Shown: piece by piece, positions 13,379 to 59,850 of the stretch
Position numbering within the stretch: the stretch's first letter is position 1
How the letters are laid out: each line of letters begins with the position of its first letter
Assembly (NCBI RefSeq): GCF_000526375.1
Contig: NZ_JAFY01000002.1
Coordinates: forward strand, 62,001 to 126,000
Length of the DNA stretch: 64,000 nucleotides
Reading direction: 5' to 3'
Source of the DNA: Aminiphilus circumscriptus DSM 16581
GTDB taxonomy: Bacteria; Synergistota; Synergistia; Synergistales; Aminiphilaceae
Translations under genes and position numbers: made by a program
Notes under the pieces: model-generated
What the model saw: the letters and a program-made list of their open reading frames with translations, nothing else
The model's database searches: none
Told to the model about the DNA's origin: nothing

Positions 13379-13400
13379 AGTCGCCGATTCCCCACATTGC

Positions 13401-13661
13401 GCCCTCCCGGCGGACGGCGGGTGCTTACGGTCGTCCGGGGCGTTCCGGGCATTCCGCACAATGGCGCCTCCAACCTCCGGGAGAACATGCGCTTTCTGCA
13501 CGAAGAAAGTGCCGTTTCGCCCTCCCGGCGGACGGCGGGTGCTTACGGCCCTCCGCGGCGTCCCGGGCATTCTGCACAACGGCACCTCCAACCTCCTGGA
13601 GAACATGCGCCTTCTGCACGAAGAAAGTGCCGTTTCGCCCTCCCGGCGGACGGCGGGTGCT
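13401..13661. repeat. 118-bp tandem repeat, 2.2 copies
   Basis: Units start at 13401, 13519 and 13637 with GCCCTCCCGGCGGACGGCGG. Two full units are nearly identical and the third stops after 25 bases. The period is not a multiple of three, so the repeat is not protein-coding in a fixed frame. Confidence 0.9.
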
Positions 13662-13670
13662 CTTCTCAGA

Positions 13671-13820
13671 CCTTGAGCCCGCTTACGAATCGCTCGCGTC
13701 CGCTTCGGCCCTCCGGGGACCGTCGCAGAGCCGCCCTCCCTGGCGGCGCTGCGACTCTCCGGGGCATCCTGCCCCTCCGTCCCCTGCGGTCTCTCGCTTC
13801 CGCTCGCACGCGGGCCAAAG
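13671..13820 (+). repeat. 150-bp inverted repeat, left arm
   Basis: Matches the reverse complement of 15660-15809 over 150 bp with only a few differences. Inside it, 13722-13755 forms a hairpin (GTCGCAG...GCCGCC / GGCGGC...CTGCGAC). Together the arms enclose the O-acetylhomoserine sulfhydrylase-like gene. There is no open frame for a transposase. Confidence 0.9.
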
Positions 13821-13922
13821 GATCTTCGAAGACCATCCCTTGTCCGCCGTTATCTCACCCTCACAAGGAATTCCGCTTGTTCGGCCCACAAGGTTCTCTC
13901 CCGTAAAAACCCCTTCGCTAAA

Positions 13923-14025
13923 GGAAACTCTGAATAAAGACCTTTCGTCGCTTTCCCTTGACTCGGGTCGCATCAGGCTCTGCAAGGCGTCCTGCGGGGC
14001 TGATGCAGCCTTATCCAGAAGTTCC
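13923..14025 (-). mobile_element. MITE-like element, copy 1
   Basis: 103 bp, bounded by GGAAACTCTGAATAA at the left and an imperfect inverted copy ending GTTCC at the right. The 4-bp sequence TAAA stands on both sides (13919-13922 and 14026-14029). It has the opposite orientation to the copies at 42664 and 59751 and no coding capacity. It sits ~75 bp before the promoter of the next gene. Confidence 0.85.
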
Positions 14026-14097
14026 TAAATTCATGAGCACTCCCCTCTAAAATACTCGTCACCAGGAACTCCGGCGTTCGGCGGATCTGTCGTATCG

Positions 14098-14176: not shown

Positions 14177-15493
14177 ATGTCCCGAAACGACGGTCTTCCT
14201 GAAACACTCCGTTTCGATTCCCTGGCCATCCACGCCGGATACGAACCCGATGCGGCGACACTCTCCCGCACGGTGCCTATTTATCAGACCACGGCGTATC
14301 GATTCAAAAGTGCCGCTCATGCGGCAAGCCTTTTTGCTCTCGAAGAGGAGGGAAATATCTACACCCGCATCGGCAACCCCACCACGGAAGTGCTGGAAAA
14401 ACGCATGGCGGCACTGGAAGGCGGCGTTGCGGCGGTAGCCTTCGCCTCGGGACACGCCGCCGTAAGCGGCGCCATCCTGAATATCGCGGGCGCGGACGAC
14501 GAGATCGTCTCCTCTTCCGCCCTCTACGGCGGAACGGCGAACCTCTTTGCCGCCACGCTTCCGCGATACGGCATCACCGTTACGTTCGTCGACTCCCGGA
14601 ACCCGGAAAATTTCCGAAAAGCCGTAACCCCGAGGACAAAAGCCTTCTACGGCGAGGTCATCGGCAATCCCGACGCGCAGGTGCTGGACATTCAGGCCGT
14701 GGGCGACATCGCCGCCGAATGCGGCGTTCCTCTCGTCGTGGACGCCACCTTCGCCCCCCCCTGCCTCTGCCGCTCTCTCGAATGGGGCGCGAACATCGTG
14801 CTCCATTCCGCCACGAAATTCCTCGGCGGACATGGAACCTCCATGGCGGGCATCGTGGTGGACGGCGGCCGTTTCGACTGGGGCAACGGACGGTTTCCCT
14901 CCCTCTCCGAACCCGACCCGAGTTACCATGATCTGCGCTATACCGAAACCTTCGGCGCAGCGGCCTTTGCGGCACGACTCCGCACGCAGGTTCTTAGGGA
15001 TTTCGGCGCCTGCCTGAGTCCGTTCAACAGTTTTCTCATTCTTCAGGGGATCGAGACACTCCCGCTCCGCATGGAGCGCCATTGCAGCAACGCGCTCGCC
15101 GTGGCCCGATTCCTGGAACGGCACCCTGCCGTCGCCTGGGTGAATTATCCGGGGCTTTCCTCCCATCCCGATGCGTCACTGGCAGAAAAGTACCTCCCCA
15201 AGGGAGCAGGGTCGATCTTCACCTTCGGCGTCAAGGGCGGATTGGAAGCGGGACGACGCTTCATCGACACCGTTCGACTCTTCTCCCTGGTGGCGAATGT
15301 AGGCGACGCCCGTTCGCTGGTGATCCATCCCGCCAGCACCACCCATTCACAACTCGACAGCACCCAACTCGCCGCAGCGGGAGTACGGGAGGATACCATC
15401 CGCCTCTCCATCGGTTTGGAAGATCCCCGGGATCTTCTCGAAGACCTGGACCAGGCCCTCAGGAAGGCCACCGATCCCGGTGTTCTCTCCTAA
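14177..15493 (+). CDS. metY: O-acetylhomoserine sulfhydrylase / Cys-Met metabolism PLP enzyme
   Basis: 438 aa, length typical of the MetY branch (cystathionine synthase-like enzymes are ~380-400). The PLP lysine is Lys214 in [11 protein letters not shown], and the family motifs [21 protein letters not shown] and VVDATFAPP are intact. It should make homocysteine from O-acetylhomoserine and sulfide; a gamma-lyase role is possible. ATG 14177 follows GAGGAGG by five to six bases. It stands alone, with its own promoter, between 150-bp inverted repeats and long tandem repeats, which hints at transfer or local rearrangement. Confidence 0.9.
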
Positions 15494-15659
15494 AACGCTT
15501 CGCCCCTGCGGACCCTGGAGGAACGCCGTGCCGCCCAGAGAGAAAGAGCCTCTGCGAGCCTCTGAAGGAACACCATATCGCCCAGGCGGGGAGATCTTCT
15601 TCGCATCCTCTCCGGAATGCCGCGCCACCGAGGCAGGAGAGAGTAAGGCCGCCAAGGCC

Positions 15660-15809
15660 CTTTGGCCCGCGTGCGAGTGGAAGCGAGAGACCGCAGGGGA
15701 CGGAGGGGCAGGATGCCCCGGAGAGTCGCAGCGCCGCCAGGGAGGGCGGCTCTGCGACGGTCCCCGGAGGGCCGAAGCGGACGCGAGCGGTCCGTAAGCG
15801 GGCTCAAGG
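15660..15809 (-). repeat. 150-bp inverted repeat, right arm
   Basis: Near-perfect reverse complement of 13671-13820, including the internal hairpin. It abuts the first unit of the 144-bp array. Recombination between the arms would invert the 1.8-kb segment with the sulfhydrylase gene. Confidence 0.9.
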
Positions 15810-16646
15810 GCCGGGTGGCCTTGCTCTCTCCCGCCGGACGGCACGAAGACAGCACAGCGACCACACGGAAACACACGGAAACTCGCCGCTTCTCAACTTC
15901 ATAAACCCGGGGAGAAGCGGAAGACGAAAACACACCGAAGCGGCAACCAGCGGGCCGGGTGGCCTTGCTCTCTCCCGCCGGGCGGCACGAAGACAGCACA
16001 GCAACCGCAGGGAAACACACGGAAACTCGCCGCTTCTCAACTTCATAAACCCGGGGAGAAGCGGAAGACGAAAACACACCGAAGCGGCAACCAGCGGGCC
16101 GGGTGGCCTTGCTCTCTCCCGCCGGGCGGCACAAAGACAGCACAGCGACAGCACGGAAACACACGGAAACTCGCCGCTTCTCAACTTCATAAACCCGGGG
16201 AGAAGCGGAAGACGAAAACACACCGAAGCGGCAACCAGCGGGCCGGGTGGCCTTGCTCTCTCCCGCCGGGCGGCACAAAGACAGCACAGCGACAGCACGG
16301 AAACACACGGAAACTCGCCGCTTCTCAACTCCATAAACCCTGGGGGAAGCGGAAGACAAAAACACACCGAAGCAGCAACCAGCGGACCGGGCGGCCTTGC
16401 ACTCTCCCGCCGGACGGCACGAAGACAGCACAGCAACAGCAGGGAAACACACGGAAACTCGCCGCTTCTCAACTTCATAAACCCGGGGAGAAGCGGAAGA
16501 CGAAAACACACCGAAGCGGCAACCAGCAGGCCGGGTGGCCTTGCTCTCTCCCGCCGGGCGGCACGAAGACAGCACAGCGACAGCACGAAAACACACGGAT
16601 ACTCTCCGCTTCTCCACTCCATAAACCCAGAGAGAAGCGGAAGATA
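15808..16646. repeat. 144-bp tandem repeat array, ~5.8 copies
   Basis: The landmark GGAAACTCGCCGC recurs at 15877, 16021, 16165, 16309 and 16453, and as GGATACTCTCCGC at 16597, always 144 bp apart. Units differ by only a few bases; the last is the most diverged. Each unit can fold a 9-bp hairpin (CCGCTTCTC / GAGAAGCGG). Because 144 is a multiple of three, long open frames run through it on both strands, none with a start site of quality. Confidence 0.92.
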
Positions 16647-16679
16647 ACACAGACTCTCGCCCATGACCAAGGAGGTGCG

Positions 16680-17678
16680 ATGAACATGATGGAGATCACA
16701 GGTAACGGTGTTCAGGCGGAGAAGACCTTCGTCTGCTTCGAGGACATGCTGGACTCACTCTCCGTGACCGTCGTCGCGGAGGATTCCGTTCCCTACGAAA
16801 GCCCCCTGCTCGGACAGCACGGACTTTCCCTGTACGTCGAGGCAACCCGCCAGGACACGCGCTTCCGCTGCCTCCTCGACGTGGGACAGCATCCCGACGC
16901 GCTCGCCTTCAACATGGAACGCCTCGGCATCGACCCCGCCACACTCGACGCGATCATTCTCACCCACTGTCACTACGATCACACCAAGGGCGTCGCGGCT
17001 CTGCTCCGCCGCGCGGGAAAGAAAAACCTCCCCGTGGTGGGACATCCCACACTCTTCCGCCCCCACTTCTGCACGGCCCCTTCGCTCCAGCTTCTCGGTG
17101 TCCCCCCGGAGGACAGCCTCTCGGAAATCACCGCCGCCGGAGGCGTCTTCCTCGCCGTGGCCGATCCGCTCCAGCTGCTTCCGGGGCTCGTCGTCACGGG
17201 GGAAATCCCGAGAGTCTCCGGGTTTGAGCGCCCCCCCGCAGGACTTCACACCGTCGAAAACGGTGCGGTGGTCCCCGATTCGATGCGGGACGACCTGGCT
17301 CTTGCGGCATGCGTTCGCGGACGGGGCATCGTGGTCCTCACCGCATGCAGTCACGCGGGCATTGTGAACACCACGCGCTACGCCCTCGGGCTGTGGGGGC
17401 CGGACACATTGGTGCAGTGCGGCGGCAGTTCCGCCCTCGTCGGGATCGTCGGAGGATTTCACCTCGTGGAGGCCGACGACGAGTGCGTCGCCAAAACCGC
17501 CTCCGCCCTGGCGGAGCTGGAACCTCAATGGATCAGCGCCGGGCACTGCACGGGATGGAAGGCCCAGATCAGCCTTCAGGCACACCTGGGGGACCGCTTC
17601 CGGCCTCTTGCGACAGGGTTGCGTTTCTTCGTGGAGGCACCTGCGATCATCCAAGGCATGCCGGACACCCGTTCCTGA
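16680..17678 (+). CDS. Metallo-beta-lactamase-fold protein
   Basis: 332 aa. Metal ligands are in THCHYDH (H96, H98, D100, H101); later ACSHAGIVN and GGFHL and the C-terminal GHCTGW supply the remaining family positions. This pattern fits the MBL branch annotated as 7,8-dihydropterin-6-methyl-4-(beta-D-ribofuranosyl)-aminobenzene-5'-phosphate synthase (archaeal MJ0301-like), whose bacterial role is unclear. It is cytosolic. ATG 16680 lies only four bases after GGAGG; Met3 (16686) has better spacing, so the start may be two codons later. It is followed after 9 bp by the glycerate kinase gene. Confidence 0.8.
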   Translation: MNMMEITGNGVQAEKTFVCFEDMLDSLSVTVVAEDSVPYESPLLGQHGLSLYVEATRQDTRFRCLLDVGQHPDALAFNMERLGIDPATLDAIILTHCHYDHTKGVAALLRRAGKKNLPVVGHPTLFRPHFCTAPSLQLLGVPPEDSLSEITAAGGVFLAVADPLQLLPGLVVTGEIPRVSGFERPPAGLHTVENGAVVPDSMRDDLALAACVRGRGIVVLTACSHAGIVNTTRYALGLWGPDTLVQCGGSSALVGIVGGFHLVEADDECVAKTASALAELEPQWISAGHCTGWKAQISLQAHLGDRFRPLATGLRFFVEAPAIIQGMPDTRS

Positions 17679-17687
17679 GGTGCCGCC

Positions 17688-19102
17688 GTGAATTCCCGGG
17701 AACACCGTTCCTTTCTTCTGAAGATGGTCCAGGACTCCCTGAAGGAGATGACCTTTGCCAGGGCTCTTCCGGACCGCGCCTCCGTCACCGCCGAGGGGCT
17801 CCGGTGGAACGGCATACTCCAGGAGCCGCCTTATTTTCTCCTCGCCCTCGGCAAAGGGGCCCCGGAGATGGCCGCGGCCATGGCGGAACTCCTTCCGGAA
17901 CACCTGTTCCTGGGAGGGCTGGTGGTGACCAAGGACGGACATGGAGGACTCCTCATGGAAAAGGGGCACCCCTGGACGCTTTGTTCCTCCTTTCCCCAGG
18001 AGGCACCGCCGTCTCCGCCCCCCCTGGTGCTCCGCGAGACCGCGCATCCCATCACGGACGCCCGGGCCATCGCCGCCGCGGAAGAAGCGCTTCACCTCCT
18101 GAAGAACCTTCCGCTCCGCTGCACCGTCATCGTCCTTCTCTCCGGGGGCGGTTCGGCCCTCTTCGAACTTCCCAGACCACCATTGACGCTTGAGGATCTG
18201 GACGCGGCGAACCGTCTTCTCGTCACCTGCGGTGCCTCCATCACGGAGATCAATTGCGTGCGGAAACATCTCTCCGCCGTAAAGGGAGGCGGTCTCCTGC
18301 GGCATATCTTCCCCAGAAACTGCCTCTCCCTCCTCGTCTCGGACGTGGTGGGAGACCCCGTGGACGCCATCGCGTCGGGCCCCACCTCGGCGGACCCCAC
18401 CACCTTCGGGGATGCCCTGGATGTGTTGCGCCGTTACGATCTGGAGACAACTTTTCCTCCAAGGGCGCTCTCTCTGCTTCGGGAGGGACACCGTGCCGCC
18501 GCGGAAGACATGGACACTCCGGGCTTTCCCCGGGAATCCCTCGAAGAGACCGTCAAGAACACCGCCTCTTTCGCCGTCACCACCGAGGTGGTGCTGGGCA
18601 ATCGGGCATTGCTGGACAATCTCGGCCGCCGCCTCGCCCAGGCCGGGCTGCACACGCTGCATCTCTCCACCTTCGTCTCCGGCGAGGCCCGGGAAGTGGG
18701 ACGTTTTCTCGCCGACATAGCCCGTGAAATCCGCGCCTCTGGCAAGCCCGTCCCTCTTCCCGCGGCGGTCCTCACCGGGGGTGAGACGGTGGTGACGCTC
18801 CGAGGCAGGGGCAGGGGGGGCCGAATCAGGAGACGGCGCTGGCCTTCGCCATCGCGGCCCGGGACCTCCCCGGAGTCACCCTGCTCTCCCTCGATTCGGA
18901 CGGCACGGACGGCCCCACCGACGCCGCCGGGGGCATCACCGACGGGGGGAGTTTCGCCCGCATGCACGCCGACGGAATCGACCCGTGGAAGGCCCTTGCG
19001 GACAACGACGCCTATGCGGCCCTCGACGCGGCGGGAGATCTCCTCCGCCTCGGCCCCACGGGGACGAACCTGAACGACTGTCGGGTACTCCTGGTGGAAT
19101 GA
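17688..19102 (+). CDS. Glycerate 2-kinase (MOFRL/DUF4147 family), frameshifted near the C-terminus
   Basis: GTG start at 17688 behind GAGGTG. The N-terminal DUF4147 domain is intact ([35 protein letters not shown]). At the G7 run 18814-18820 the frame is lost; the original frame reads an Arg/Ser/Pro-rich tail to 19073. One extra G would give [12 protein letters not shown] and then [14 protein letters not shown], the conserved MOFRL end, stopping at 19102. So the true gene very probably spans 17688-19102. Whether this is a sequencing error, a pseudogene or a phase-variable run cannot be told. The family phosphorylates glycerate to 2-phosphoglycerate. Confidence 0.85.
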
Positions 19103-42663: not shown

Positions 42664-42764
42664 GGAACCTCTGAATAAGGCTGCGTCAGCCCCGCAGGGC
42701 GCCTCGCAGAGCCTGATGCGACCCGAGTTCAAGGGCAAGCGAAAGATCTTTATTCAGAGCTTCC
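42664..42764 (+). mobile_element. MITE-like element, copy 2
   Basis: 101 bp, ends GGAACCTCTGAATAA and TTATTCAGAGCTTCC. TTAG stands on both sides (42660-42663 and 42765-42768). Same orientation and about 94% the same as the copy at 59751. It lies between two divergent promoters. Confidence 0.88.
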
Positions 42765-53016: not shown

Positions 53017-53116
53017 GGAAGCTCTGAAGAAAGATCTTTGGCTTTTCCTTGACTCGGGTCGCGTCAAGCTCTGCGAGGCGCCCTGCGGGGCTGACGTAGC
53101 CTTATTCAGAGACTCC
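53017..53116 (-). mobile_element. MITE-like element, copy 3
   Basis: 100 bp, ends GGAAGCTCTGAAGAA and TTATTCAGAGACTCC. TTAG stands on both sides (53013-53016 and 53117-53120). The right TTAG supplies the TAA stop of the FAH-family gene. Same orientation as copy 1. Confidence 0.85.
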
Positions 53117-59750: not shown

Positions 59751-59850
59751 GGAATCTCTGAATAAGGCTGCGTCAGCCCCGCAGGGCGCCTCGCAGAGCC
59801 TGATGCAACCCGAGTCAAGGGAAAGCGAAAGGCCTTTATTCAGAGCTTCC
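59751..59850 (+). mobile_element. MITE-like element, copy 4
   Basis: 100 bp, ends GGAATCTCTGAATAA and TTATTCAGAGCTTCC (one mismatch in 15 between the two ends). GTAG stands on both sides (59747-59750 and 59851-59854). The interior can fold through CTGCG/CGCAG-type pairs. It has no coding capacity. Confidence 0.9.

Follow-up and report, generated by a model that had tools for sequence, protein, structure and literature searches.

The window analysed here, a 64,000-nucleotide stretch of the genome of Aminiphilus circumscriptus DSM 16581, contains an O-acetylhomoserine sulfhydrylase-type gene followed, across an intergenic gap of 1187 bp (1.19 kb), by a gene for an MBL-fold metallo-hydrolase and then by a glycerate-kinase-like gene (Table 1). 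Most of the gap is taken up by a tandem array of 144-bp units, the left edge of which (15808) falls within 2 bp of where a 151-bp palindromic element ends. An inverted copy of this element lies on the other side of the sulfhydrylase gene, and 10 bp beyond the outer side of that copy is a second tandem array, with units of 118 bp. The first-pass annotation of this DNA had missed both the palindromic element at the edge of the 144-bp array and the second array beside its other copy. Compared with its counterpart in a congener (G001), the glycerate-kinase-like gene has a frameshift near 18820 that puts its C-terminal part into a different reading frame; this is either a genuine mutation or an error of sequencing.

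Table 1. Features of the sulfhydrylase-MBL locus, with positions in the window.
Feature	Position	Strand	Remarks
Second tandem array, 118 bp x 2.2	13400..13661	.	TRF
151-bp element, inverted upstream copy	13671..13821	-	98% identical to downstream copy
Dispersed element of ~103 bp	13923-14026		Also ~42664-42764, ~53017-53110, ~59751-59850
O-acetylhomoserine sulfhydrylase-type gene	14177..15493	+	TIGR01326; between the inverted elements
Degenerate repeat region	15494..15640	.	In the congener, 94-bp unit x 1.8 here; window 47 bp shorter
151-bp GC-rich palindromic element, downstream copy	15659..15809	+	Central hairpins match Rfam TwoAYGGAY just over cutoff
Tandem array, 144 bp x 5.8, without indels	15808..16646	.	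TRF, unit comparison, own-genome search
First 9-bp stem hairpin, CCGCTTCTC-17 nt-GAGAAGCGG	15886..15920	.	Next at 16030, 16174, 16318, 16462, 16606
MBL-fold metallo-hydrolase gene	16680..17678	+	Downstream of the array
Glycerate-kinase-like gene	17688-19073		10 bp after the MBL-fold hydrolase gene

An array of about 5.8 near-identical units of 144 bp had been described in the first-pass annotation, and TRF confirmed it, giving a period of 144, 5.8 copies, 94% matches, 0% indels and a score of 1485 (span 15808-16644). The units start at 15808, 15952, 16096, 16240, 16384, and 16528, are 91-99% identical to one another, and have a GC content of 62.5%. In the unit comparison, units 1 to 5 carried 3, 3, 1, 6, and 6 mismatches to the consensus; unit 6, which is cut at 116 bp, was the most diverged, as expected at the edge of an array. 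The array does stop shortly before the ribosome binding site of the MBL-fold gene, as had been noted, but the distance from its end to AAGGAGG (16669-16675) is about 23 bp rather than the earlier estimate of about 30 bp, and the ATG (16680) follows 34 bp after the array.

Minisatellites consist of highly identical head-to-tail units of about 10-200 bp, and this description fits the 144-bp array. The best-known bacterial example of an intergenic minisatellite or VNTR is the MIRU-VNTR of mycobacteria. Like such loci, the array has head-to-tail units of high identity in the size range from tens to more than 100 bp, a diverged unit at its edge, and a position between co-oriented genes. MIRU and REP sequences, however, are dispersed over many loci in a genome, whereas the 144-bp unit occurs at one locus, where its copy number is known from one genome. 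A search of the rest of the genome found the unit nowhere else. A search of related genomes, which had been proposed as a check, likewise gave no match in the 182 other genomes of the order (first 60 relatives, then 183 genomes including its own). Weak matches to the unit in other genera were short, 24-47 bp, and probably due to chance. No comparable array was present in the DNA examined around 27 MBL-family matches in relatives, and an unrelated 87-bp repeat upstream of a Roseiflexus relative of the MBL gene (L014) was judged a coincidence. In the literature we found nothing specific to the sulfhydrylase-MBL locus.

The stem formed by CCGCTTCTC and GAGAAGCGG is perfect in five of the six units; in unit 4 (16318) a change of A to G leaves a G-U pair. 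The earlier observation of a stem in every unit is correct; these are not six independent hairpins. When the unit was dinucleotide-shuffled 1000 times, only 11 of the shuffles had any perfect 9-bp inverted repeat of this kind, and the hairpin is thus modestly above chance once and was then copied along with the unit; all six derive from a single hairpin and are not sites that were maintained independently. The hairpin motif has no occurrence elsewhere in its own genome or in 20 relatives, and the proposal in the first-pass annotation of a protein-binding array finds no support in recurrence of the motif within the genome. Across the units one stem variant was observed, which preserves pairing, versus 2.6 expected. 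Together with the complete lack of indels, this single variant leaves room for weak constraint. Both are modest hints, explained equally well by recent duplication and homogenisation.

The array sits where the promoter of the MBL-fold gene would be expected, immediately ahead of a strong ribosome binding site. With its stem nearly unchanged in all six units, it could act in cis as a leader or promoter region regulating the MBL-fold gene and the next gene, the number of units setting expression via the hairpins or repeated binding sites. We consider this rather unlikely, given that a promoter scan found no sigma-70-like promoter, that the motif is confined to this locus of the genome, and that the homologous genes in the order lack an array. 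Neither does the array have an excess of RNA structure: with fold z-scores of -1.64 for the unit and -1.03 for the array, it folds only slightly better than shuffled sequence. Rfam contains no family that matches the unit or any part of the array, the only match being to the neighbouring 151-bp element. These results leave the structured RNA that had also been proposed unsupported. Expansion driven by slippage or recombination is the best fit of the three options offered by the first-pass annotation, but the tuning of the downstream gene that came with it has no support, as relatives carry no such array at their MBL-family genes. As a regulatory device, the array is without support yet. On the minus strand, terminator-like sites numbered 7 versus 3.1 in shuffles; several of these are a single site multiplied by the array, and we saw no minus-strand gene that would need them.

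The 151-bp element next to the array (15659-15809) folds as a long branched hairpin of -85.6 kcal/mol, and the genome has two copies of it only. We ran TRF on a sample of 1.258 Mb, taken in stretches and amounting to about 39% of the genome, and detected no further tandem array with a period of at least 70 bp in it, so that both known arrays of this kind adjoin the outer sides of the element copies. This placement looks non-random, two cases being a small sample. A bolder reading, which we regard as unlikely, is that the 151-bp elements actively seed tandem amplification in the DNA next to them; fresh arrays would then appear on their outer sides lineage by lineage and alter the leader of the MBL-fold gene.

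In its GC-rich paired hairpins and GGA-containing loops, the 151-bp element resembles REP/BIME-type repeats and the CsrA-type TwoAYGGAY RNA. It differs from both in that it has just two copies and a partial model match barely over the cutoff (43.6 bits versus a gathering score of 43; model positions 45-113 of 168), a match made by a GC-rich sequence in two near-identical copies. TwoAYGGAY has no match within the 144-bp array. According to the TwoAYGGAY match, CsrA-type hairpins with GGA loops occur in both elements, and a csrA gene is present in the genome; the elements around the sulfhydrylase gene are possibly CsrA-binding sites.

The genes are arranged in the same order in the congener G001, whose sulfhydrylase protein is 98% identical and which also carries the two palindromic elements and an equal number of copies of the 118-bp unit. 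Its contig ends in the downstream element (~15750) and the next one starts in the glycerate kinase gene (~18035), and the 144-bp array and the MBL gene are therefore missing from its assembly. The 94-bp repeat downstream of the sulfhydrylase gene differs in length between the congeners, showing that the sulfhydrylase-MBL gap changes length within repeats. One site is T in both copies of the 151-bp element here and C in both copies in the congener, a pattern, limited to this one site, that gene conversion between the copies could produce.

The presence of the sulfhydrylase gene between inverted 151-bp copies, both of them found also in the congener, could suggest that the array and the palindromes are what is left of a mobile element in which this gene was carried between inverted repeats. 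Such an origin is very unlikely. There is no transposase gene between the copies, the element is limited to these two copies in the genome, the congener shows the same orientation and order, and the array lies outside the inverted repeats.

Repeats of other kinds are also found in this genome. A dispersed element of about 103 bp, whose ends form the imperfect inverted repeats GGAAACTCTGAATAA / TTATCCAGAAGTTCC, gave 45 or more genomic matches. The congener lacks the copy found here at 13923, its site being empty, and a direct repeat of 4-5 bp (TAAA or CTAAA) borders the insertion; judged by these sequence features, the element is a MITE-like family. A CRISPR-like array with a repeat of about 30 nt, GTTGTGAGCCTTCCTACGAGGGATGGAAAC, is located at L222:1550-1900 (G000 contig C1).

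That the array encodes a repetitive protein, with repeats of 48 residues on one strand, is scarcely credible: 144 is a multiple of 3, there are no indels, four of the unit's six reading frames are open and one of 386 codons runs uninterrupted along the minus strand, but open frames are to be expected at this GC content, none of the six frames has a significant synonymous excess (21 distinct variants, low power; lowest P 0.10), and the Pfam matches are marginal, limited to 11-16 residues from unrelated families, none of the stretches reaching significance by itself. With no credible Pfam family and no significant synonymous bias among these few variants, the array has the character of non-coding DNA.

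We conclude that the array is probably a lineage-specific, non-coding intergenic minisatellite that arose beside the palindrome and was grown and homogenised by recombination or slippage. One 144-bp intergenic stretch, by chance carrying a hairpin, would have been duplicated beside the long GC-rich palindrome. The first duplication probably took place at a replication stall or slip by the palindrome, slippage at a stalled fork being a likely origin of such an array, and later growth and homogenisation would have proceeded through unequal recombination or more slippage. We infer that the palindrome was the cause of the array and that the array itself would have no function. The locus provides a clean example of tandem arrays with a long period situated immediately next to large palindromes, in a phylum that has received little study, and the array could be used as a marker for strain typing if its copy number varies.
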